DNA of 64,000 bases from Haloferula sp. BvORR071. Its GTDB lineage: Bacteria > Verrucomicrobiota > Verrucomicrobiia > Verrucomicrobiales > Akkermansiaceae. Positions 46,099 through 62,652 of the stretch are shown here, in pieces (positions within the stretch are counted from its first letter, which is position 1; every line of letters starts with the position of its first letter). A program made the translations under genes and the position numbers. Location: contig NZ_BATP01000025.1 in the NCBI RefSeq assembly GCF_000739615.1, positions 94,949 to 158,948 on the forward strand, in the 5' to 3' direction. Below the pieces are notes generated by a model. It was not told where the DNA came from. It was given only the letters and a program-made list of their open reading frames with translations, and made no database searches.

Positions 46099-48408
46099 AT
46101 GCAACGCCATCTCCTCGCCAGCCTCTTGCTCCTGCCAATCGTCTCCCAAGGCGGTGACTACATCCGGGAATTCTACGGGGCCCGCGAACTTGAGAAGAGC
46201 GGGAATCTGGAAGCCGCGACAGCGGGAATGCAGCGCAGCTTCGAGCTCGCAATCGCAGATGGCAATACCGACTACGCAACTGCCGCCGGTGCGAATGTCT
46301 GCGAGTTCCTCTATCGTAACGGCAAGGTGATCGAGAGCGGCAAGTCCGCCCGCACCGTGCTGGACGCGCTACAGGCATTCCCGGCGGACAATAAGACCGA
46401 CCCGCGACTCTCGACGATCTTCGGCTATTTGGAGCGCGGCCTCAATGCCGAGGGCAAGCTCGGCGCGGCATGGCAGGCGAACCGAGCCGGATATTTAACC
46501 CTGGGCGGCGGACATCCGGCCGCCACCGCAGACGGCTCGTCGATCACCCTGGATCATGTGAAGTGGCTGTCGCCCGCCCTACGCAGCCGTGGCTGGCGTC
46601 TGCTTGAGCGGGAGTCGGAATACTTGGACTATGCCGGGCGCTCCGTGGAGGCACGTGCGCTCTTGGATAATGCGGCTGTGCATCTCAAAGCGCAGTGGAG
46701 CCGGTTGGACAAGAACGAGCGCTTCTACGGCTTCAAGGTGCTCGCCAGCCGAGCAATGCTGTTGGATTTCCTCGGCTACGAGGCGGAGGCCATCGCCGCC
46801 CAGCGCGAGCTGCTGGACCTTCCCGCTGAAAACGAAGACGAGTCCAGGCAGCGGCTCAATCTGCGCCTGAATCTGCTCCGCAATCTCTCCCAGTGGGAAG
46901 GCCCCTCCGAGAAGATCCTCGAGGAGGCACGCGGCATCGCCGGGATCCTGGCGGCGGATCACAATCGCGACACCGAGCGCTTGATCGCCAAGATGGAGCT
47001 CGATCTCAAGGAATCACAGGCGGCCCGCGACGCCCTCGCCGCAGATGCCAAGCGCCACGCCGCGGAAGGCTACGAGACCGATGCCGCCTATGCTGGCCGC
47101 GATAGCCTGATCGCCCGCGCGGAGCATGGCGAAGACAATCTCGATGCCGAGTTCGCCACCCTGCTCACCAAGATGCGCGCGCTCGGCAGCAAACGCGGCG
47201 AGCCCTTCCTCTACCGCGAATACGGCGAGTATCTGCTCGATCGCGGCCGACCTGCGGAAGCGATCCCGATGATCACCGAGGCGCTGCGCTTGACCCGCGC
47301 CTTCCACTGGACCCTCCACGAACCCGCCCTTCTTCACGATCTCTTCAACGCGCGCCTCAAAGCCGGAGATACCGATGGCGCCCGCGCGGTGCTGGCGGAA
47401 CTCGAAGCCTGGCTGAAAGCCAATCCGGACGCACCCGCCGGACGCCGCTCCCGCGCCCTGAACTTGATCGCCCTAGAGAAGGCGCGACTCGGGGACAAGG
47501 ACGGAGCGCATGCCGCCTACGAACAAGCCCGCGCCGCAGCGCATGACCTACCCGACTACCAGAAGCGCTATCTCACCCCCGAGCTGGAGAAAGAGGCGCT
47601 CGCAGAGGCACCTACCGCACCGCTCCCACCAGCAACCGAAGCCCCCCAAGTGCGCCTACAACCCGTGGAGGTCCACAGCATCGCCGCACCCGGCCAAGCC
47701 GCACGCACCCGCTTCGTCGCCTTCAACCCCGCGGCCACCGCGACACACGGCGAGCTGGTGATCGAAGGCCCCGGCGCAGAAGCCAGCGGCAACAAGCTAC
47801 ACTTCCACGCTGGCTCGCCCGTGAAGGCACTCAAGATCCCACAGACCATCTCCGGAGGAGGAGAATCGGTGCTGCCGGTCACCATCGCCGCGAACGAAGG
47901 CGTGACCGAATCGCAGGTGAAGCTCTCGTGGACCAGCGCGGGAAACAGCATCCCCGCAAGCACTTGGTCTATTCGCTGGACCTCGGATGCGAAGGAAACT
48001 GTGGTCCTGGATGCAAGTTTGCTGGAGGCCAATCCCTTCCGCTCGGTCTCGCTCTTCCACGAGATCGGCATGCCAGTGGGCCAAGCCGCCGCCATCCCCT
48101 TCCGCCTGCGCTCCAAGTCGGCCTTGCGTTTCGAATACTATGACTCCCGTAGTGGCGAGCTGCTGGCCATCGACGCGAATGGCAACGGCGACTTCACCGA
48201 GGCCGGCGACCTGCACATGAGCAGCATGGACGGCGTAGCCGCCGCAATCCTGCCACGCGGACCGGGCAAGGATCTGCCGGGCGTGGAAGTCCGGATCTTC
48301 TCACCCAACGGCGAAGCCCTGCCCTTCGTCTCCCCCGCCCTGCCGCTGCAGTCGGAGGTCTATCGCGACGGCGAATGGATAACTGAGGCCGACAACTTGC
48401 TGCGCTAA
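46099..48408 (+). CDS. Exported TPR-repeat protein
   Basis: 769 aa with a signal peptide (QRHLLASLLLLPIVSQGG). Residues ~25-500 are tetratricopeptide-like helical pairs: FYGARELEKSGNLEAATAGM, NEDESRQRLNLRLNLLRNLS, YGEYLLDRGRPAEAIPMITE, ARLGDKDGAHAAYEQARAAA. The C-terminal ~250 residues are beta-rich (TRFVAFNPAATATHGELVIEG) with features of a bacterial Ig-like or hinge domain, and end in a short region with an EF-hand-like DANGNGDFTEAGDLHMSS. It probably works as an envelope scaffold or assembly factor. It is a single gene; the 5' gap of 139 nt has nothing recognisable. Confidence 0.78.
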   Translation: MQRHLLASLLLLPIVSQGGDYIREFYGARELEKSGNLEAATAGMQRSFELAIADGNTDYATAAGANVCEFLYRNGKVIESGKSARTVLDALQAFPADNKTDPRLSTIFGYLERGLNAEGKLGAAWQANRAGYLTLGGGHPAATADGSSITLDHVKWLSPALRSRGWRLLERESEYLDYAGRSVEARALLDNAAVHLKAQWSRLDKNERFYGFKVLASRAMLLDFLGYEAEAIAAQRELLDLPAENEDESRQRLNLRLNLLRNLSQWEGPSEKILEEARGIAGILAADHNRDTERLIAKMELDLKESQAARDALAADAKRHAAEGYETDAAYAGRDSLIARAEHGEDNLDAEFATLLTKMRALGSKRGEPFLYREYGEYLLDRGRPAEAIPMITEALRLTRAFHWTLHEPALLHDLFNARLKAGDTDGARAVLAELEAWLKANPDAPAGRRSRALNLIALEKARLGDKDGAHAAYEQARAAAHDLPDYQKRYLTPELEKEALAEAPTAPLPPATEAPQVRLQPVEVHSIAAPGQAARTRFVAFNPAATATHGELVIEGPGAEASGNKLHFHAGSPVKALKIPQTISGGGESVLPVTIAANEGVTESQVKLSWTSAGNSIPASTWSIRWTSDAKETVVLDASLLEANPFRSVSLFHEIGMPVGQAAAIPFRLRSKSALRFEYYDSRSGELLAIDANGNGDFTEAGDLHMSSMDGVAAAILPRGPGKDLPGVEVRIFSPNGEALPFVSPALPLQSEVYRDGEWITEADNLLR

Positions 48409-50915: not shown

Positions 50916-52472
50916 CTACTTCTTCCCGAACCACCTCATCACCTTCGAAAGCAGCCCACCACCTGACTCCTGCACCTCACCCCCGGCCTTCTTCTCCTCC
51001 GCCCGCTTCACATAAGTCCCCGGCGGCAGCGGCGGCGGCACATCCACCTTCTTCGCCGGATGCCGGATCTCGTGCCGGTAGCCATGCTTCGCCGCCAGCT
51101 TCATCGCCTGATCATACAGCGGCGCATAGCGCTTCTCATCCACCATGCTCAGGAAGTTCGCGAATCCACTGACCCGCGCCAAAATCCTCTCCCCGCTTCC
51201 ACGCCAAGCACAAGCGGCAGGCCCCTTCGCCTCCAAACGATGCAACAAGGCCCGGAAGGCCCGCACATCCTCGCGCGGCACCGATAACTTTTGATTCACC
51301 ACCACCCCGGTGACTTCGTGGCGGCGGCCCTTGCCCATCGTCCGCAGCTTGTCCGGATGGATCTGGAAGCCTTCCTCCTCGATCACCCGGCGCACCTGCC
51401 ACAACAACTTCCGCCCCGCATCGCGATCCCCGCCTTGCGTGGAGAAAGTCAGATCATCCGCATAGCGCGTATAAGCAAACCCATGCTTCTTCGCGATCCC
51501 CGTCATCCGCGCATCCATGCGCCTACAAAGCAAATTCGTGATCGCCGGACTCGTCGGTGCCCCCTGCGGCAAATGCCTTACGCCCGTAGCCACCTGCCAT
51601 GTCTCACCATCGAGATCCACTTCCTCCACCGGCGGCTCGGTGCAAAGCTGCGCGAAGATCGTCGCAATCGAACGCGAATACCCGAGCGCATGAAAAAGCC
51701 CGAACACCCGCGGCCAGGTGATATTCGGGAAGAAGTCGCGCAGATCGAGATTGATCATCAGCGAGGCCCCGATGTGCGGCCCCGCATTTGTTAGAATCGA
51801 ATGCTCCGTCCGGAAGCCATGGGCCGCCGCGTGCACCGGCACCTTCTCCAGGATCTGGTGCAGGATCCAGTGCTGCGCCTGCTTGAGCCGCGGCATCGGC
51901 GCCGAGATCAAGCGATGCCCGCCGGTCTTCTTCGGCATCAGGAAACGGCGGTAGTGCCCGCCCTTCGCCACCTTGCGGCCATAAGCCAGGAAACGCAGCT
52001 CCCCGATATTGGTAAGCATCGCCTGCGCCAGCGCGCGGTGCGTCGCAAAGTCCGGCAGGCCGTGGCGCAAGAGATGCCCGACACGCGACTCGATCTTGTT
52101 GAGCTGTGTCGATGCACCTTCGCCGAGGAAGAGGATCTCGTCCTGCTTGCGTCGCTCCCACGCGGCCGCCTTGTCGGCACGCGCCTGTTCGCGCTTCGCC
52201 TTGTTCTCCTTCTGCTTCTGGCGTGAAGCTGCCAGCCGCTCGCGGCGCATCTCCTTCAGCGCCGCCTCGCGATTCTTGTAGAGCCGCTGCTTCTCGTTGA
52301 GCTCCCGCAGCTCCTTGACCAGCTCCCCCTCACGGCGGATCAGCTCCTCGGAAGCCTTGGTCTCGGCTTGCCCCGGCTTCCAGAAGCCGGTGCGCACCAT
52401 CTCCTCCAGGGTATACTGGTCCTTGCCCCCGCGGGCGCGGATCTGGTCGTAGAGTTCCTGGCGGCTGGGCAT
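50916..52472 (-). CDS. Retron-type reverse transcriptase with N-terminal coiled-coil extension
   Basis: 518 aa from ATG 52472. Residues ~30-110 are a highly charged, probably coiled-coil extension (RREGELVKELRELNEKQRLY...KQKENKAKREQARADKAAA). The RT domain follows: RRFLMPKKTGGHRLI, NLDLRDFFPNITW (first catalytic Asp near 242), GVRHLPQGAPTSPAITNLLC, the active site YTRYADDLTFS (YADD 337-340) and VTGVVVN near 387, which is the retron-type VTG motif. There is no maturase or endonuclease, so it is not a group II intron RT. It should copy the msd of the adjacent non-coding RNA into msDNA. It is the third protein gene of an operon with a WH-SWIM protein and a WGR/ARM-repeat protein, which I take for the retron effectors. 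Confidence 0.94.
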   Translation of the reverse strand: MPSRQELYDQIRARGGKDQYTLEEMVRTGFWKPGQAETKASEELIRREGELVKELRELNEKQRLYKNREAALKEMRRERLAASRQKQKENKAKREQARADKAAAWERRKQDEILFLGEGASTQLNKIESRVGHLLRHGLPDFATHRALAQAMLTNIGELRFLAYGRKVAKGGHYRRFLMPKKTGGHRLISAPMPRLKQAQHWILHQILEKVPVHAAAHGFRTEHSILTNAGPHIGASLMINLDLRDFFPNITWPRVFGLFHALGYSRSIATIFAQLCTEPPVEEVDLDGETWQVATGVRHLPQGAPTSPAITNLLCRRMDARMTGIAKKHGFAYTRYADDLTFSTQGGDRDAGRKLLWQVRRVIEEEGFQIHPDKLRTMGKGRRHEVTGVVVNQKLSVPREDVRAFRALLHRLEAKGPAACAWRGSGERILARVSGFANFLSMVDEKRYAPLYDQAMKLAAKHGYRHEIRHPAKKVDVPPPLPPGTYVKRAEEKKAGGEVQESGGGLLSKVMRWFGKK

Positions 52473-52504
52473 GGCGCTACTCTGCAGGAGAGAAGAGAGA
52501 AACG

Positions 52505-52729
52505 GACAGCGGCGGGCGGCGTCTTCGTACAACTCGGAGGACCGGGCTGCTCAACTCGAGCGACCCCTCACTGGTGTCGCTATTTCGCCTCACGGAGGCA
52601 GCCCCGGAAATAGCGACACCAGTGAGAAGGGTCGCATAGTCACGAGCTGATCGGTGAAGCGTTGCTAGGCTGTGAACATGGACGGCGAAACGCCGACCGG
52701 ATGGCAAGATCCACACCCCCGCCGCTGTC
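52505..52729 (-). ncRNA. Retron msr-msd non-coding RNA
   Basis: On the minus strand the RNA begins with a1 GACAGCGGCGGG (plus 52718-52729) and ends with a2 CCCGCCGCTGTC (plus 52505-52516), a perfect 12-bp match. Between them the msr part (52636-52717) contains a hairpin CGGCG-TTT-CGCCG and a GGAT...ATCC stem. Then follows the msd hairpin: 19 bp, perfect (52568-52586 with 52607-52625), extended after a small internal loop by GCGACCC/GGGTCGC (52560-52566 with 52629-52635) and tipped by GCCTC-acg-GAGGC. The a2 end is 33 nt before the RT start codon, and the preceding gene ends 63 nt before a1. The branching guanosine could not be fixed. Confidence 0.9.
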
Positions 52730-52792
52730 TGAAATGATTTACGCCGCGCGCTCCGCACGGCGGAAGGAAAATATGTCTCCACAGTTGTCATT

Positions 52793-54442
52793 TTACTTCG
52801 TGGCTGTGGAGGGCTGCTTCGACTTCGCGATGCGCAGCGCGATGATGTGCGCGCAGGGCCCCTTGCGAAGCTGGTTCTGTTGATAGAAATTGCAGGAGCA
52901 CTTGGCCTTCACCAGGCGCTCGTCGGCATCGATCGTGGCATCCACCTGATGGTGATACTTGCCATCGGTCACAGTGCCCTGGAGATAGCGGCCATCTAGG
53001 CGCTGTTCCTCGCGCGCCATCACCCCGCCATGCTTCACCAGAATGCGGGCATTTGCCTCCAGTTCATTGGAGAAGCGCAGCTTGTCGAGCGGCAGCGGCT
53101 CGCGGCTCAAGGCCCGGGCGCGCCACAGATCACTGTTGGAATCCTTCACCACCAGCCCCGCTTGTGTGCCTGCGATCAGTGCACCCAGCACATCCGCCTG
53201 CGCCATCCCCAGCTCCGCGGCCAACGCGGATGCTGGCGAAAACCACTTCCGCCCCAACGCCCCGAGCACCATCTCCGTCGCCTCCGTGGAGACGGCATGG
53301 CGCGGCGCGAGCAAATCGAACATCCCGTCGCGCGACCAGTCGTTCGCGGTCCAGCCGGAGAGCCCGAGCGTGAAGTTCATCTCGCCCATGTCCACCTCCC
53401 AGAAGGAGGGCATCCCGTAGCCTAACAGATTCACCCGCACCCGCCTTGCGACCGGAATCATCTGCTCCAGCACCAGCAAACGGCGGCGGCCCCACAGGCG
53501 GATCTCCACCTTCTCCGTGGCGTGATGATGCGAGCGACGGCAGACAATCTCCGTGCCCCAAGGATCCACCGTGATCACCGGTGGCTGGCCCGGCGTAAGT
53601 TGGAAACGCAGCGAGCGAGGCCCCTTCTTCTCCTTGCGCCGCTTCAGGGGGAAACAGATCGCATGGAAGTCCATCGGATCGAGATCCACCGTCGTGCCAT
53701 CGAGCGTGATCGCCGAGCTGACTTGCAGGAAACCGCGCACCCAGGAGTCAGGCACATCGATCTTCACCTCGCGGTGCGCAGGATCGGGGCCGGTTTGAAC
53801 CTCGAATCCCTCCGGATCAATCGCCAGCTCCGTCTCCTTGTAATCGCGGATTTTACGAAACTCATCGTACAAAGGCGCGGAGTAGTCGATGTTCGTGGTG
53901 CCGCAGGTAAAGTCGCCGATGCTCTGGAAAACCTCATGCTTGCAGGAGAGCCGCGCGTAGCTCGATTCATCCTGGCTGAAGCACTCGAAGAAGACCTGAT
54001 CCGGATGCACCGTGATCACGGGATCGAGGATGAACCACAGGTCGCGGTCCGTCTTGTAGATATGGTCCCAGTAGCGCTTCCGCGCATCGTGGAAGGCCTT
54101 CATCATCCCCATCTTGCTCTTCCGGACCTCAGAGAGCTCCAGGTTCACGGCGGCCACCCGGCCCTTGATATCCGCGCTCTTCGCCATGAACTCGGCGAGC
54201 CATGCCTCCTCCTGCGTCGCAGCCCACTCCTTGTAGTCGCCTCGTTCCTTCGGCTTCCAACGCAGATCGCCCACCACCACTTCATGCAGCGCGCAGATCG
54301 CCTCGCGGAAGGGCAGCTTGCTGCGCAGGCGGCCCTTGAAGCCCATCGGCGGTCGGTTGCCGTCAGGCACGAAGCTCATCGCCGTCGCGCGCGGAGTCGC
54401 GTGTACCTTGCTGAAGCCGCGGTATTGATACTGGAAGATCAT
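52793..54442 (-). CDS. Winged-helix/SWIM zinc-finger protein (retron accessory)
   Basis: 549 aa from ATG 54442, which overlaps the stop of the WGR/ARM gene by ATGA; the open frame extends much further upstream inside that gene and is not used there. The large N-terminal region is of no known family (FQYQYRGFSKVHATPRATAM; LPFREAICALHEVVVGDL). Residues ~380-450 look like a winged helix (MVLGALGRKWFSPASALAAE, LGMAQADVLGALIAGTQAGL). Near the C-terminus is a SWIM zinc finger KCSCNFYQQNQLRKGPCAHI, with CxC...CxH at about residues 515-532. WH-SWIM proteins are listed, as I recall, as a component of type XIII retrons. It may bind DNA or msDNA. Confidence 0.88.
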   Translation of the reverse strand: MIFQYQYRGFSKVHATPRATAMSFVPDGNRPPMGFKGRLRSKLPFREAICALHEVVVGDLRWKPKERGDYKEWAATQEEAWLAEFMAKSADIKGRVAAVNLELSEVRKSKMGMMKAFHDARKRYWDHIYKTDRDLWFILDPVITVHPDQVFFECFSQDESSYARLSCKHEVFQSIGDFTCGTTNIDYSAPLYDEFRKIRDYKETELAIDPEGFEVQTGPDPAHREVKIDVPDSWVRGFLQVSSAITLDGTTVDLDPMDFHAICFPLKRRKEKKGPRSLRFQLTPGQPPVITVDPWGTEIVCRRSHHHATEKVEIRLWGRRRLLVLEQMIPVARRVRVNLLGYGMPSFWEVDMGEMNFTLGLSGWTANDWSRDGMFDLLAPRHAVSTEATEMVLGALGRKWFSPASALAAELGMAQADVLGALIAGTQAGLVVKDSNSDLWRARALSREPLPLDKLRFSNELEANARILVKHGGVMAREEQRLDGRYLQGTVTDGKYHHQVDATIDADERLVKAKCSCNFYQQNQLRKGPCAHIIALRIAKSKQPSTATK

Positions 54443-57400
54443 GACGGCACGTGAATGGGAACGCTCACCGGCTTGAGCGGATTCGGGATCGCTGGCCACT
54501 GCCGGCGGATCGCATCCAGGATGCGGATCATCTCCGCCTTGTCCTGGATCGCCACCGTGCCGGACTGACGGGCGAGCAAGGGGGTGACCTGCCCGGCGAT
54601 CGCTTCGGCAGCCAGCGCTTCCCTTTCCAGGAAAGCCAGCACCCGCTGCTTCGCAATGCGGCCTGCACCGATGCGCGACAGCACGGTGCGGAAATAAAGA
54701 TCCAAGCTTGCGATCCGCTCCGCCGATCCGCTGGCAAAGCGCTCCAGGTAGTTCGTAGCGAAAAGCTGGATCTCCGTCGATGGATGCTGGCTGAAGCGCG
54801 CGAGGTAGAGCGGCCCGTCCTGCTCTTGGAAGAGCCGCGTGACCAACTCCCGCCCGAAATCGCGGACGCGCTGCTGGTTCGAGTCGCAAATGGCCACCAG
54901 CGCTTCCGGCGTCCAATCGCCATCGCGGATCTCGCGGCGGCAGAAAGCGAAGGCGCGCTCGCGGGTGTCATCGAAATCGCTCTCCAGCAAGCCGAGCACC
55001 ATCCCGGGATCGTCGCGCAACTTCTGCGGGCTGCGCTCCAGCCGCTCGAAGGCCCACTCGCGCAAGGCCACCAGCGAATGCACCGCCCATTCGGCAAGTT
55101 GCTCGGTATCGTGATTGTCCGTCTGGCGCTTGAGGATCTCGAAGCCCAGCGATTGGCCGTAGCCGTACTTCGACTCCAGCATCCGCGGATAAGAGTCAGC
55201 AGGGATCACATCCAGCTCCGCTACGAAGGGCCCGGAGAGCAAGCGATAGACCGATTGATGCAGCCCCTCGAAGCTCTCCGCGCGGAACAGCAGCGGATAC
55301 CACTGGATCACCAGCTCGCGCGCGGCCTCGCGATTGTAAGCCGCAGCGCGCCCCAACAATGGCTCGGCACCTTCGCGAAGTTCGGGATGCGTTGAGACCG
55401 CACAAGCAGCCAAGGTCTCCGTGCGCTCGGCCAACTCGTGGGCGGACAACTTGCCTAGCAGCTCCATCCCGAGCTTGCGCACCGCGGGAAATTCCGACGA
55501 CAGCGCGGCCAGCAGGATATTCTCCGGCAGGCCCGAAACCGAGGGCCTCTTCAACAGGATCTGCACCGCCAGCAACTGGCAGGCCTCCAGCGGATGCGCC
55601 GCGAGCTCGGCGAGATGGGTGACAGGCAGCGCCGCGACTTCATCCGGTGCCAGCAAGAGCAGGAAGTCCACCGCCGTGCCGGACTGTGGCGCATCCTCCG
55701 GGTCCATCGCCAGCAGCGCGGAGATCACGCGCGCCGTGAAGTCACGCTGCACCTGCGGATCGATCCGCGTCGCGCGCAGGATGTCCCGCACCGCGATCCG
55801 CGCGTCCTCATGCGCCAGGAAAGCCGCGGAGGCCAAAAAGTTCGCATCCGTGGTGGCGGTCGATTGGCAGGCACTGAGCCAGGCGATGCCATGCACCCGC
55901 GCCTCCCCCAGCCCGGACGCCAGCATCGCATGCAGCAGCAAAAGATCCGGCGAACCGGGATTCCAGCGCGCCTTCGCGATCTCCAACCCGAGGGCACTCG
56001 TCTCTGCATGCCATGAACCTAACAAGTCTGCGATGAAGCTGATGTCCGCCTCCTCCAGGAAGACCGGATTCGCGCGCCAGATCCGCAGCGCGAACTTCTG
56101 CACCACCGCGCTGCGCGCATGCCGCAGCAGGTGCATGATTGCATCCGGTGCCTGATCCCAGAGTTCCGGGAAAGCCTCCTCGCGCCCGACCAACTCGCTG
56201 CGCCGCCCTCCGGCATAACGCCACGAGTTCTGCCGCGGATTCAGCTCCACCGCATCGAGCCCTCCCCGCAACAACCACAGGAAGCCGAGGCTCTGCTTGT
56301 GGGCCGGATAGTAGCTGCGGACTTGCACGCTGCGCCGCGCGGCGCGGTCGTAGGTCCAGTTCTCGATGAAGGTCTCATCGGGAGAATCCACCGAGTCGTC
56401 GTAGGCAAGCAGCAGCCCGGTCGCCAAGGGCACGAACAGCGCAGCCTCTCCGCTCTCTCCGGCGGTCTTGAGGAAGCGCATCGGCCGCCGCCGCAGGTAG
56501 TTCCGCGTATTCGGCATGAAGGCCGGCTTGGGGGCGTTCCTCGACCTGTAGTCGTAAAGCGGGCTGTTCGGACTGCTGAGATCGAAACGCCGTATCACCT
56601 GGCCATAGAGCTCCGCATCCAGCTTGAACTCCGATGCCTTTAGTACTTGGCGGAAGAAGGGCATCGTCCCGCGCCCGACCGGCAGCAGGCGGATCATCTC
56701 ATGGACGATCTCCCGCACCCAGCTGCTGCGGCTCGCGAGCAGCAGCAACTTGGCCGGAAATTCCACATCGCCGATGTTGCGCAGGAAGGGCTCCACCACC
56801 GCGCGGAAAGCCTGCGGATCACCGCTGGAGTAGGCCTCGCCAACGCTACTTGGCAGCGATTGAGCCACCTTCTCTTCGAAGCTGCCATCATCCGGCGTCA
56901 GGGCAGCCCGCGCCTCGGCGACCATGATCCGCACCCACGCTTTCTTATCGCTGGCACGATCGGCCAAAAGATCCATGGCGACGGCATGGCGGGCCTCGCC
57001 GCAACGCCCGAGCGCCCACGCGGCACACCACAGGTCCATGGGATCCGTCAGCCGGGCACACAGCCCGGCGATCGAATCCGCCGCCTCCCGCATCCGCCAG
57101 GCCCCTGCCCGCCAGATCACGCGCGAGAGCTTCCAAACCCGCTGCCCCTTCTTGAGCGGCTTCGGGGACTTGCCCTCCGCCTCTTCAGCCAAGCGCTTCA
57201 GAATCGCCCGGCGCTTCGGATCATCCACCGCCGGTGCCGATGAAGCAGCCCCCACCGGGATCTCCTCCCGCATCCCCGCCTCACCCTCCACCCGATAGCC
57301 CTTGCGGGTCTTCTCCCCGACCAGATCATCGAAAATCTGCTCCGCCTTCGCCCGCGATTCCGGAAAGGGCGTCTTCGTCCCATCCCGCAGCGCCGCCCCC

Positions 57401-57522
57401 CGCCGCCCATAGCGGAAATTCACCAGGAACTCCCCCGCCCCCGCCTCGCACAAATCCACCTCATAGACCTTGTCGGAATTCCCCTCGCGGAAAAAGAGAC
57501 GGCTTTGACGGACGAGCTTCAA
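54439..57522 (-). CDS. WGR-domain ARM/HEAT-repeat protein (retron accessory)
   Basis: 1027 aa from TTG 57522; there is an in-frame stop shortly upstream and no ATG before the conserved WGR start, so TTG is chosen. Residues ~1-75 form a WGR domain (FFREGNSDKVYEVDL, FLVNFRYGRRG), which binds nucleic acid ends or partner proteins in PARPs. A Lys/Glu-rich linker follows. From ~90 to the end the protein is an ARM/HEAT solenoid (ALGRCGEARHAVAMDLLADR; LLAALSSEFPAVRKLGMELL; LFATNYLERFASGSAERIAS). Its stop overlaps the start of the WH-SWIM gene. The pair plus a retron RT corresponds to the ARM + WHSWIM composition recalled for type XIII retrons. Confidence 0.9.
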   Translation of the reverse strand: MKLVRQSRLFFREGNSDKVYEVDLCEAGAGEFLVNFRYGRRGAALRDGTKTPFPESRAKAEQIFDDLVGEKTRKGYRVEGEAGMREEIPVGAASSAPAVDDPKRRAILKRLAEEAEGKSPKPLKKGQRVWKLSRVIWRAGAWRMREAADSIAGLCARLTDPMDLWCAAWALGRCGEARHAVAMDLLADRASDKKAWVRIMVAEARAALTPDDGSFEEKVAQSLPSSVGEAYSSGDPQAFRAVVEPFLRNIGDVEFPAKLLLLASRSSWVREIVHEMIRLLPVGRGTMPFFRQVLKASEFKLDAELYGQVIRRFDLSSPNSPLYDYRSRNAPKPAFMPNTRNYLRRRPMRFLKTAGESGEAALFVPLATGLLLAYDDSVDSPDETFIENWTYDRAARRSVQVRSYYPAHKQSLGFLWLLRGGLDAVELNPRQNSWRYAGGRRSELVGREEAFPELWDQAPDAIMHLLRHARSAVVQKFALRIWRANPVFLEEADISFIADLLGSWHAETSALGLEIAKARWNPGSPDLLLLHAMLASGLGEARVHGIAWLSACQSTATTDANFLASAAFLAHEDARIAVRDILRATRIDPQVQRDFTARVISALLAMDPEDAPQSGTAVDFLLLLAPDEVAALPVTHLAELAAHPLEACQLLAVQILLKRPSVSGLPENILLAALSSEFPAVRKLGMELLGKLSAHELAERTETLAACAVSTHPELREGAEPLLGRAAAYNREAARELVIQWYPLLFRAESFEGLHQSVYRLLSGPFVAELDVIPADSYPRMLESKYGYGQSLGFEILKRQTDNHDTEQLAEWAVHSLVALREWAFERLERSPQKLRDDPGMVLGLLESDFDDTRERAFAFCRREIRDGDWTPEALVAICDSNQQRVRDFGRELVTRLFQEQDGPLYLARFSQHPSTEIQLFATNYLERFASGSAERIASLDLYFRTVLSRIGAGRIAKQRVLAFLEREALAAEAIAGQVTPLLARQSGTVAIQDKAEMIRILDAIRRQWPAIPNPLKPVSVPIHVPS

Positions 57523-58628: not shown

Positions 58629-60557
58629 ATGCCGATCGAGGAATCGCCCGCCGCGCCGACATTTGAATCCATCTTTCTGGGGGACGGTGGCCCGAGGCTG
58701 ATCCGGATCCCGGACTACCAGCGCGCCTTCACTTGGGAGAAGAAGCAGATCGATCTATTCGTCGGGGATCTCGCGAAATTCAGGCCGCGCCCGGATGACT
58801 ACTACTACGGTCACTTCATCATTGAGGCGGAGAAGGGGACCTGGGAGCTGGTGGACGGCCAGCAAAGGATCACGACCTTCATCCTTTTCCTGATGGTGTG
58901 TCGTCACTTGGCTCCCGCCACCGGGCACCGGGCGCTCGGCTTGATCGAGCGCTTTGCCACGGTGAACTATGACCGGCGGGCGCTGGAACTCATCCAAAAC
59001 AACCTGGGTGCCCTCTTCGAACTGGGTGCCACGCTTTCCGGGAAGGATGAACACGCCGATAAGGAAATTTGTGAGGCCTGCCGGCTCGATCAGAGGGAAT
59101 TCACTCGCTCCCAGAAAAGAATCGTGTTGGCCTTGGCCCGCTTCCACGAGGCCTTTGCCTCGGCGACTTTGGATCGCGCTGAGATCGCGGCCTACATCGA
59201 CGTGGTGACGCGTTCCAACTGCTCCTATCACCCGGCGAAAAGCAAGGCGGTGGCGGTGAGTGTCTTCGAGATGCACAACACCCGCGGCGTGGGGCTGACC
59301 ACCATCGAGATCGTGAAGGCCAAGCTGACCCGCTTCGTCTACGATCACCTGGAAGGGGATCGGGACGCTGCGGTGGCGGAGATCCAAGCCCACTTCGGGG
59401 AAATCTATCAGATGGAGGAGCTGCTCGAGCAAAGTTCCTTCCGCGGCGATCTGACCTTGGAGCAGCTTCTGCGCCTGCACCTGCGGGTCATCGACGACGG
59501 GACCAAGAACGGGGAGAAGATGTTTGAATCCCCGGCTGTGAACGCCAGTGTCGACGATCTGATCGAGTATTTGGAGAAGCGGCTGCACTTTGTGGACCTG
59601 GACAAGAAGCAACCTAGGTCCAAAGCTTCAGGTGTCGAATATGCCCGCGCGGTGGCCCGCGAGTTCAAGCAATCCGTCCGCTTGGCCAGCAGCTTCCTGC
59701 CAGCATGGGATGATGGAGAGCGGCTGGTGGGTGATGTCCTGATCCTGGAGCGGGAACTCAGTTGCCAGTTTTTCCTGCTGATGGCGCGGAGGATTGCTCC
59801 GGAGGCTGGCGAATCTTTTGGAAAGCTGGGGCGGCAGGTGCTGGTCCTCTGGGAGCGGCTCCTCTTCACCCGGGATTTCCACGACAAGTACTACCGCCTG
59901 AGCTATCGCGACAATTTCCCAGGGCTCTTCGAGGAGCTTTGCCGGGAAGGCGCGGATCCGGCGACGGTGCTCATGAGCTACGTGAAAGATGGCTTCCGAG
60001 GCGGTGACGTGACCAAGGATCTCCAAAAGGTGGTGTTGGACTATGCAACCACCTACAAGCCGCACGTCCTCAACAACGCCTTTTACTGGTGGCGGGAAAA
60101 GATGATCTACGTGATCTACAAGTTCGAGATCCGGGCCGGAGCGAAAGTCCGCCAGACCATGAAGAGGGTCATTTCGGTGGAGCACATTCTTCCCCAAGAA
60201 TGGGATTGGAAGTGGATTGACGGTTATGGGGGAGACGCTGGCGAGCCCGGCGAGGAGCTGAAGGAAAAGCTCCTAAAGGAAATCGGTGCCTTCATTAACG
60301 GCATCGGCAATCTGCTGCTCCTGACCCGCGGCGAGAATTCATCGGTGGGCAATCTTCACCCGGCGAAGAAGACGTATAGCGAGAGATATGACGGCGGCAC
60401 CTACACGGCGCATCTGGAGTCGCGGGAGAAGTGGCTCCAATCCTCGCAATGGCAGCCCCTCATCCTCCAGCGCGGCACGGAGATTTGGGACTTCATGGTA
60501 CGGGAGATGATCGGGATTCCCATGGAATCGCCTGACACGGCCAGCAGCGGGAACTAA
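58629..60557 (+). CDS. DUF262/DUF1524 (GmrSD-like) restriction-type protein
   Basis: 642 aa. The N-terminal DUF262 (ParB-like, GmrS) domain shows IPDYQRAFTWEKKQIDLFVG and the nucleotide-binding LVDGQQRITTFILFLM. The C-terminal DUF1524 (GmrD, HNH-like) domain has VISVEHILPQEW and a later INGIGNLLLLTRGENSSVGN. Fused DUF262-DUF1524 proteins are type IV restriction enzymes of the GmrSD type that cut modified phage DNA using NTP; the middle region of ~350 residues is specific. The gene stands alone, 156 nt after the OGG-like gene and in the same direction, and belongs to the same defence island. The exact modification target is unknown. Confidence 0.9.
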   Translation: MPIEESPAAPTFESIFLGDGGPRLIRIPDYQRAFTWEKKQIDLFVGDLAKFRPRPDDYYYGHFIIEAEKGTWELVDGQQRITTFILFLMVCRHLAPATGHRALGLIERFATVNYDRRALELIQNNLGALFELGATLSGKDEHADKEICEACRLDQREFTRSQKRIVLALARFHEAFASATLDRAEIAAYIDVVTRSNCSYHPAKSKAVAVSVFEMHNTRGVGLTTIEIVKAKLTRFVYDHLEGDRDAAVAEIQAHFGEIYQMEELLEQSSFRGDLTLEQLLRLHLRVIDDGTKNGEKMFESPAVNASVDDLIEYLEKRLHFVDLDKKQPRSKASGVEYARAVAREFKQSVRLASSFLPAWDDGERLVGDVLILERELSCQFFLLMARRIAPEAGESFGKLGRQVLVLWERLLFTRDFHDKYYRLSYRDNFPGLFEELCREGADPATVLMSYVKDGFRGGDVTKDLQKVVLDYATTYKPHVLNNAFYWWREKMIYVIYKFEIRAGAKVRQTMKRVISVEHILPQEWDWKWIDGYGGDAGEPGEELKEKLLKEIGAFINGIGNLLLLTRGENSSVGNLHPAKKTYSERYDGGTYTAHLESREKWLQSSQWQPLILQRGTEIWDFMVREMIGIPMESPDTASSGN

Positions 60558-61536: not shown

Positions 61537-62652
61537 TCACTTCCCCTTCACCTTGTCCGCCGCTTTCCAAAACTCCTTCCCCTCCGGCGTGGAGTGATCC
61601 ACCAACAACCACAACTCCCGCGCCAATGACGCCTCTGTAATCAGATCCTCCGCCGGACCCTCCTTCCACTTCGCGTAATGCGCCTCCGCATCGGAGATCG
61701 CGCGCTTGAGGTAAACGTCCTGCCCCGTGTGGCGATAAAGCTCCAGGTCCGCCTCCACCATCAGGTGTGACCACTTCAGCGGATCGCGGTATATCTTCTT
61801 CTGCCCGTCCAGCATGCCATCCGCGGCCTTGCCCATGCGCAGGGCTTCATCGAGGTAGAATTCCTGCCCGGTGCGTGTGTGCAACGAGAGGAAATTCCGC
61901 AGCATCAGCGCTGAGTTGTAGGTGAGCTGGCCTCCATTCACCTTCCCGGTGGACACATCAATGTTGTCGCCGAACAGACCGTTGTCGCCCTGCAGGGTCT
62001 TCACCGTCCACACCACGATCTTCTCGCCCTGCGCATTCCACTTCGCCGCTTCCGGCTCCTTCTTCCATCGTGCCAGGCGGAAGCAACCGAGGGCCGCTGG
62101 CGCATTCACGCAGGTGTTCTTGCCGTTGCCCTTGTGCTTCTCGTGCCACCAGATGCCACCGCCTGCTTCCTCATCCCAACCACTCAGGACGAAATCCAGC
62201 GTCTCCTCCGCCCGCTTCAGGTACTTCGACTCCTTCGTCGTCTCGTAGGCTTCCAGGAAGGTCAGCACCATCCACGCGTTGTCGTCATAGTACTTGTCGC
62301 TGCCGCCCTGGGTGCGTGCCGGCTCGTAGCCGGGGATCTTCACCTTCACGTCCCAATAGGCATCCATCGCCTCGAAGAAATCGCGCTGGATCGAACGGAA
62401 GCGTTTGTCGTGGCGGGCAGCCGCGACCAACGAGGAGAACATCACGCCATTGCCCCAGATCAGCTCGGGATCCTTGCCCCCCGCCTTGGCCGAATAGAGG
62501 TGCGACTTGCGGTCCCAGAACTTGTCCTGGATGTGATCGGAAACTTCCGTTGCCTTCGCCAGGAAAGGCGACGCGGTCTGCGCGCCCAGCGGCAACACCG
62601 CAAGCAACAGAGCCAATCCAGCACGGAACCAAGAACAGCGGGGCGTTTTCAT
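61537..62652 (-). CDS. Secreted glycoside hydrolase family 76 (alpha-1,6-mannanase-like)
   Basis: 371 aa from ATG 62652 with a signal peptide (FRAGLALLLAVLPLGAQ). The (alpha/alpha)6-barrel of GH76 is shown by FWDRKSHLYSAKAG, WGNGVMFSSLVAAARH, the active-site pair in KYYDDNAWMVLTFLEAY, GGIWWHEKHKGNGKNTCVNA and NGGQLTYNSALMLRNFLSL. In GH76 two adjacent Asp of the YYDDNAW type act as nucleophile and acid/base. It would hydrolyse alpha-1,6-linked mannan backbones, e.g. from fungal walls or bacterial polysaccharides, outside the cell or in the periplasm. It stands alone, with no SusCD-like partner nearby. Confidence 0.9.
   Translation of the reverse strand: MKTPRCSWFRAGLALLLAVLPLGAQTASPFLAKATEVSDHIQDKFWDRKSHLYSAKAGGKDPELIWGNGVMFSSLVAAARHDKRFRSIQRDFFEAMDAYWDVKVKIPGYEPARTQGGSDKYYDDNAWMVLTFLEAYETTKESKYLKRAEETLDFVLSGWDEEAGGGIWWHEKHKGNGKNTCVNAPAALGCFRLARWKKEPEAAKWNAQGEKIVVWTVKTLQGDNGLFGDNIDVSTGKVNGGQLTYNSALMLRNFLSLHTRTGQEFYLDEALRMGKAADGMLDGQKKIYRDPLKWSHLMVEADLELYRHTGQDVYLKRAISDAEAHYAKWKEGPAEDLITEASLARELWLLVDHSTPEGKEFWKAADKVKGK

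Follow-up and report, generated by a model that had tools for sequence, protein, structure and literature searches.

The locus examined here, on the minus strand of a 64,000-nucleotide stretch of the genome of Haloferula sp. BvORR071 (hereafter the window), is, judging from sequence comparison, almost certainly a complete and canonical type XIII retron, consisting of a reverse transcriptase (RT) gene, a predicted msr-msd non-coding RNA and two large partner genes, one for a protein with a WGR domain and HEAT/ARM repeats (WGR-HEAT protein) and one for a winged-helix (WH)/SWIM protein (SWIM protein). According to structure modelling, the SWIM protein very probably carries a PCNA-type sliding-clamp fold. 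The RNA belongs to a covarying family, and relatives of the system in cyanobacteria appear to be split in trans. Clamp fold, RNA details and split relatives are additions to an initial annotation of the locus, which had described the operon itself.

The assignment to type XIII is based on the type-specific PADLOC models, which match all three proteins and score best for each of them. The RT reached 591.6 bits with RT_XIII (runner-up RT_other, 323.4), the SWIM protein 714.8 bits with SWIM_XIII over residues 1-541, and the WGR-HEAT protein 1031.5 bits with WGR_XIII and 97.9 with HEAT-ARM_XIII. The initial annotation had deduced the type from gene composition and suggested the PADLOC run as a check, and the outcome agrees with it. 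In the 2020 classification by Mestre, the combination of ARM and WHSWIM proteins is said to define type XIII. Re-reading the open reading frames (ORFs) recovered the three annotated minus-strand genes of 1027, 549 and 518 amino acids (Table 1), and the annotated ATGA overlap between the SWIM gene start and the WGR gene end is present at 54439-54442. The gap between SWIM and RT genes measures 320 nt (52473-52792). For the RT, the ORF list favors a TTG start at 52532, which would adjoin the a2 region of the RNA, while the position of ATG 52472 is the start in 15 aligned RT homologs, some with a short extension. The Pfam cut-offs were passed by RVT_1, SWIM and WGR, and HEAT_2 stayed slightly below its own. 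NCBIfam listed no model for the two partner proteins; it gave the RT 219 and 210 bits with two retron families (below their own cut-offs of 450 and 235) and 52.5 bits with a group II maturase. RYADD and VTGVVVN were found in the RT as annotated, and in addition NAGPH at residues 229-233, the retron-type NAxxH motif. Thus NCBIfam scores, retron motifs and the covarying msr-msd-like RNA all argue for a retron RT and not for that of a group II intron. A verrucomicrobial origin, as annotated, fits the nearest named relative, Luteolibacter arcticus.

Table 1. Features of the type XIII retron locus (window coordinates).
Feature	Position	Strand	Basis
WGR plus HEAT/ARM-repeat protein gene	54439-57522	-	1027 aa; start codon TTG
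WGR domain, residues 13-80	57283-57486	-	Pfam PF05406, 27.4 bits (cut-off 22)
Winged-helix/SWIM protein gene	52793-54442	-	549 aa from ATG; PADLOC SWIM_XIII, Pfam SWIM
Predicted PCNA-type sliding-clamp fold, SWIM protein residues 34-366, helical insertion at about 58-140	53345-54343	-	Structure model and Foldseek
Winged-helix-like segment of SWIM protein, residues 386-442	53117-53287	-	Model secondary structure; named by inspection, not by fold search
SWIM zinc-finger segment, residues 460-540	52823-53065	-	Pfam PF04434 at residues 503-536
Predicted msr-msd RNA, a1 to a2	52505-52729	-	Fold z of whole gap; covariance model R1 match
a1 arm GACAGCGGCGGG	52718-52729	-	Complementary to a2, 12/12
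Candidate branching G, unpaired, directly after inner a1/a2 stem	52705	-	Invariant in 46/46 aligned RNAs (TTGC); role inferred from classical retrons
msr hairpin	52680-52698	-	Consensus helix 2; 98.4% of cells paired, double changes in 5/8 pairs
msd hairpin, variable paired stem and better conserved apical part (52582-52611)	52562-52633	-	Consensus helices 6-10; double changes in 20/20 pairs
a2 arm CCCGCCGCTGTC	52505-52516	-	Complementary to a1, 12/12
Retron reverse transcriptase gene	50916-52472	-	518 aa from ATG 52472; PADLOC RT_XIII, Pfam RVT_1
NAxxH motif (NAGPH), RT residues 229-233	51774-51788	-	N229 and H233 invariant, A230 at least 90%, 16 RTs
YADD catalytic motif, RT residues 337-340	51453-51464	-	Invariant in 16 RTs
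VTG motif, RT residues 387-389	51306-51314	-	Invariant in 16 RTs

In proteins, gene order and position of the RNA ahead of the RT, the locus is the same as a type XIII retron, and its gene content shows no difference. With classical retrons such as Eco1/Ec86 it shares the RT motifs, the a1/a2 arms and the order of msr and msd; however, those retrons have one recognizable catalytic effector, whereas here two large partners occur in which no catalytic domain was recognized. The RT carries an N-terminal extension of about 140 residues (1-140, 52053-52472) that is kept in 16 aligned type XIII RTs, with invariant positions such as M25 and G29-F30-W31, and that is a possible docking site for the partner proteins. 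Among 76 sequences of the SWIM protein, the CxC...CxH ligands of the finger are strictly conserved at C515, C517 and C530 and kept in at least 90% at H532. The WGR-HEAT protein gave a confident AlphaFold2 model (mean pLDDT 90.3) of a WGR domain followed by a helical solenoid; a fold search with it returned generic HEAT/ARM solenoids only.

The same arrangement recurs in other bacteria. A scan of named genomes with a SWIM protein alignment yielded at least 569 relatives, and the best 80 loci appear to span Verrucomicrobiota, Bacteroidota, Cyanobacteriota, Myxococcota, Planctomycetota and Pseudomonadota. In 62 of these 80 loci, RNA and all three genes lie together within the fetched stretch, which argues against a chance association, and in 53 of the 61 loci with at least 3.5 kb to the left and 3 kb to the right. 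In four loci the RT precedes the WGR gene. Furthermore, the distances of RT, SWIM and WGR proteins correlate among 56 systems (Mantel r 0.86, 0.92 and 0.91, reached in none of 2000 permutations), a result to which shared ancestry contributes. In some loci a long gap separates SWIM gene and RT. The inserted genes that we examined, named by eye, are RTX-like, NYN plus RNase III (two cyanobacteria), glycoside-hydrolase-like and, on the other strand, GMP synthase; being mutually unrelated, they were rejected as a common extra effector. The NYN-type nuclease-like and RNase III-like genes lie between RNA and RT in the related cyanobacterial loci L021 (9263-11245) and L027 (8508-10168), where the RNase III could process the RNA.

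A non-coding RNA had been annotated between the SWIM gene and the RT, and a stable, covarying, msr-msd-like RNA was indeed found there. The whole gap folds at -152.9 kcal/mol (z -6.25), and none of 100 dinucleotide shuffles is equally stable. RNAalifold on 46 RNA units (of 54 gathered; near-duplicates and long or deviant units were excluded) resulted in 42 pairs, 32 of them with compensatory double changes. In total, 91.9% of the cells are paired, against 74.6% in column shuffles (none of 500 reaches 91.9%), a control inflated by related sequences, and against 34-47% in slid structures, a control that leans toward the structure because the latter was derived from the same alignment. The covariance model R1 made from these units scores 158.1 bits on the window (E 3.7e-40, 52519-52712), which is itself one of the 46 model sequences. 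Over 87 sources, R1 gave 96 matches at E up to 1, all on the sense strand of the system. At E 1e-6, 95 matches in 79 sources were counted, excluding a weak one in locus L007 (E 0.00095). L006, L036, L072, L073, L082, L086 and L002 gave none at E up to 1; as the calibration was short, E-values are rough. Of the 80 loci, 75 have the RNA. In 67 it begins no more than 300 nt after the SWIM gene, in 54 it ends no more than 300 nt ahead of the RT match, and in three neither applies. Among the 40 loci that contributed nothing to the model it was found in 35, some of which are near-copies of members (for example L041/L034, L053/L028, L067/L066 and L077/L076). The a1/a2 duplex is stronger than 95% of mismatched-locus duplexes in 71 of the 92 units that have both flanks, and 21 fall short. 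The predicted branching G and the predicted extent of the multicopy single-stranded DNA (msDNA) are probably correct. No Rfam family matches the RNA, the two matches obtained (mir-616, SOX2OT) being at chance level and far under cut-off. PADLOC has msr-msd models of its own, one of which may cover the present RNA.

Conservation is distributed unevenly along this RNA. Mean information falls from 1.4-1.7 bits in the branch region and the msr hairpin to 0.95 at the msd tip and 0.32-0.36 along the outer msd stem. Nevertheless, the msd stem pairs with itself over 19.0 bp on average (minimum 16, 46 units), compared to 11.0 bp if arms are crossed between loci, and over all 1,035 unit pairs the average identity is 64% outside the stem and 35% inside. 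More than one RNA copy occurs in 14 of the 79 RNA-bearing sources, with a maximum of four in L015. The second copy of L052 is distant, that of L083 about 1 kb away, and contig ends cut one copy in L019 and the matches in L043 and L065. The window has one copy only, which is also the single one in its genome. In four compared loci, tandem copies are 86-91% identical outside the stem and 29-63% within; their own arms pair over 16-19 bp and crossed arms over 6-13 bp. Thus the stem changes on both sides together. Between the tandem copies of L013, L014, L061 and L070, the outer msd stems are replaced wholesale on both sides with pairing retained. A host target of the msd stem was considered and rejected: apart from the hairpin's own two arms, the genome contains no perfect match to the 16-mer of the stem, and when up to 3 mismatches were allowed, 12 and 15 matches were found versus 22 and 25 for the reversed control.

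The SWIM protein resembles sliding clamps in its predicted fold. The match spans 222 of 245 residues, nearly the whole clamp, and the matches listed from the PDB and viral structure libraries by Foldseek are filled with clamps. Several results weigh against this reading and against a mechanism built on it. Against PCNA, Foldseek gave modest TM-scores (0.27-0.34 by query, and by target mostly 0.53-0.70) and a loose root-mean-square deviation. The model is partly weak (mean pLDDT 77.6), and no homolog has less than 53% identity to the query. The SWIM protein matched neither PCNA_N nor PCNA_C of Pfam at E 0.1, no clamp came up when PDB sequences were searched with a profile, and the operon is without a clamp loader. 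In addition, the four would-be ring-lining helices, assigned by inspection over 76 sequences, have net charges of -0.4, -1.6, +0.9 and +1.9. As these are not clearly positive, a ring that encircles DNA finds no clear support in them. A PCNA recognizable by sequence was rejected as well, since Pfam and PDB profiles gave no signal and the own genome lacks a PCNA_N match, while 4 of 14 control genomes gave one. Compared to PCNA-type sliding clamps such as Sulfolobus PCNA (2ix2_B), the SWIM protein shows no sequence similarity, and it differs by the helical insertion, the extra winged helix and SWIM finger and the weakly charged inner helices. A real clamp-like fold might have nothing to do with replication and serve as RNA- or protein-binding scaffold of the retron complex. 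This is conceivable, though not the reading we would put first: the weak inner-helix charge and the lack of sequence kinship to PCNA speak for it, and a common fold proves no function, while the near-complete coverage of the clamp and the dominance of clamps among the listed matches speak against it.

How might such a system act? According to the abstract of PMC12548924, other retrons have a toxic partner that is kept inactive by the RT-msDNA complex and set free by phage activity. By analogy to other retron types, the present locus likely has an anti-phage role as well. Both partners carry domains of nucleic-acid-binding type and no recognized enzyme, leaving only these two as candidates for the toxic part. 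The RT would make msDNA from the predicted msr-msd RNA, and the RT-msDNA complex would restrain both the clamp-fold SWIM protein and the WGR-HEAT protein for as long as no phage interferes with the complex. If a phage enzyme then cut, copied or bound the msDNA hairpin, the SWIM protein would be released. Through its clamp domain, its winged helix and its SWIM finger, and together with the WGR-HEAT protein, whose WGR domain is of a DNA-end-binding type, it would engage DNA and block replication, bringing phage and host to a halt together (abortive infection). In the msd hairpin, the better conserved tip would be what is recognized, and the variable stem would serve to evade phage enzymes. We give even chances to this explanation as a whole, that is, a type XIII retron whose msDNA restrains the clamp-fold SWIM protein and the WGR-HEAT protein. 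The mode of action, from msDNA release through DNA engagement to replication block, is more tentative. One might speculate further that type XIII is a sliding-clamp retron, in which a msDNA-locked PCNA-like effector jams replication once phage DNA metabolism unlocks it, the msd stem acting as a decoy that changes fast and diversifies through arrays of as many as four RNAs in one operon, and the system being split genome-wide, in trans, in cyanobacteria. However, no catalytic effector domain was recognized in the partner proteins, which leaves the killing unexplained.

Alternatively, the WGR-HEAT protein could be the toxic effector, with the clamp-fold SWIM protein acting only as sensor or as adaptor between it and the msDNA. 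The WGR-HEAT protein is the largest partner and diverges fastest (mean identity 0.36, compared to 0.60 for SWIM and 0.53 for RT), as arms-race pressure might produce. Furthermore, the WGR domains of PARPs bind DNA ends. Still, we consider this assignment of roles rather unlikely.

The genomic distribution of the system opens a different view of it. No RT lies within the fetched stretch of 17 of the 80 loci. The genomes of 11 were examined (L014, L019, L030, L043, L065 and L087 were left out, as their contigs end less than 1.4 kb after SWIM). Each of these genomes, apparently nine from cyanobacteria and two from Cytophagales, has one RT match, one SWIM match, a WGR match and one or two RNA matches; the WGR match of G105 is partial and contains two in-frame stops. 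RT and SWIM are 5.7 Mb apart on one contig in G099 (or 2.6 Mb in the opposite direction, should this contig of 8.26 Mb be circular), 1.15 Mb in G097, 1.2 Mb in G100 and 10 kb in G101. The contig of L086 ends 0.7 kb and that of L082 4.5 kb after SWIM, and in both a nearby RT is possible. In a sample of 80 genomes of a cyanobacterial order, including the center genome, 23 have both SWIM (E up to 1e-60) and RT (E up to 1e-100) and the other 57 have neither, a co-occurrence inflated by relatedness of the genomes. Among these carriers, RT and SWIM lie within 10 kb in 7, are separated by 28 kb, 0.64 Mb and 5.7 Mb on one contig in 3, and are on different contigs in 13, in part perhaps through assembly breaks. 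Four cases, G097, G099, G100 and G151, have the two genes at a great distance on a single contig. Since the two genes are often unlinked and neither occurs without the other in this sample, the results speak for RT and SWIM protein being obligate partners. A caveat is that the matched stretch contains in-frame stops for 7 of 23 RTs, 3 of 23 SWIM genes and one of 11 WGR genomes, so that some systems may be decaying.

Outside cyanobacteria, we sampled the family and order of the window: of 96 other genomes, 5 have an RT at E up to 1e-60, and within the genus 2 of 17 do. Two of those five, in L006 and L007, are distant RTs and may not be type XIII. L007 contains in-frame stops, and its short stretch yielded no SWIM match. 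L006 (genome G076) has a SWIM relative of 34% identity about 37 nt before the RT and no R1 match, perhaps a sister arrangement with the RNA elsewhere. Among 72,556 plasmid records the SWIM protein was found in one, a 2.8-Mb replicon, and in no phage record. Viral spread was rejected after 19 pattern matches in viral contigs, one of which encodes a weak fragment of 35%.

Both the scattering of the cyanobacterial genes and their rarity on plasmids and absence from phages would fit a resident role outside defense as well, and this weighs against an anti-phage system. The msDNA would then serve, wholly or mainly, a function in DNA replication or repair, to which the clamp fold, the single, often unlinked SWIM and RT matches in the 11 genomes and an OGG-like glycosylase gene next to the retron could be related. 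However, the patchy presence of the RT (5/96) and of SWIM (23/80) is typical of accessory functions and thus points away from a resident one, and a GmrSD-like defense gene adjoins the retron as well. We therefore regard a resident function as unlikely. That the RT is not a retron RT, or that the locus makes no msDNA, is highly improbable, as PADLOC, NCBIfam, the RT motifs and the covarying RNA with its a1/a2 arms point the other way.

The OGG-like DNA glycosylase gene (PF21790, 57537-58472, plus strand) is divergent from the WGR gene, and its true start is probably further in, because the called start leaves 14 bp to the latter. It is followed by a gene with GmrSD_N and GmrSD_C domains (DUF262-type, 58629-60557, plus strand) and similarity to HEC-06/Orf5 of PADLOC, which lies on the other strand and is separate from the retron. 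Retron and GmrSD-like gene possibly form a small defense island. PADLOC gave strong matches for this gene among ten ORFs of the window, one weak match for a histidine kinase and none for the other eight. Homologs of the GH76 gene at 61537-62652 occur near the retron in the same-genus loci L091 and L092 (G009, G012), that of L092 being a 36-aa piece at the stretch end, and a homolog of the gene at 46099-48408 lies near the retron in G012. This partly shared neighborhood hints at vertical inheritance or a shared hot spot. Elsewhere in the own genome, a second, retron-like RT (L002, G000:C44:209735-210634) of 38% identity was detected, with PADLOC RT_other/outgroup as best and RT_XIII as third model; no SWIM_XIII relative besides that of the window was found in this genome.

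Type XIII has received little attention so far. The initial annotation considered its way of sensing phage and killing as not well established, and no account of it turned up in our paper searches. Our searches gave no more than a passing mention of type XIII retrons, and those for WHSWIM, for msDNA with XIII, for retron with WGR and SWIM, and for WGR domain with SWIM and MolR found nothing. Papers on retron and sliding clamp exist, none of which links the two as far as titles and abstracts show, and none was found for SWIM zinc finger and PCNA. XIII was not found when the main texts of PMC9252829 and PMC12548924 were searched. None of these searches, whose coverage mostly excludes preprints and subscription papers, revealed the clamp fold, the RNA family, the RNA arrays or the split relatives of type XIII. 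To our knowledge, retrons in general have not been described with turnover of a stem that stays paired, with RNA arrays or with a split in trans.

Taken together, the value of the locus rises because comparison with its relatives predicts a clamp fold and reveals fast-changing paired stems, RNA arrays and apparently split retrons. The predicted clamp fold offers a first testable handle on how the little-studied type XIII acts. The covarying RNA delimits the exact stretch for msDNA work and provides a search model for type XIII across phyla. Finally, stem turnover, arrays and split retrons would show that RT, RNA and partner proteins need no linkage to work together.

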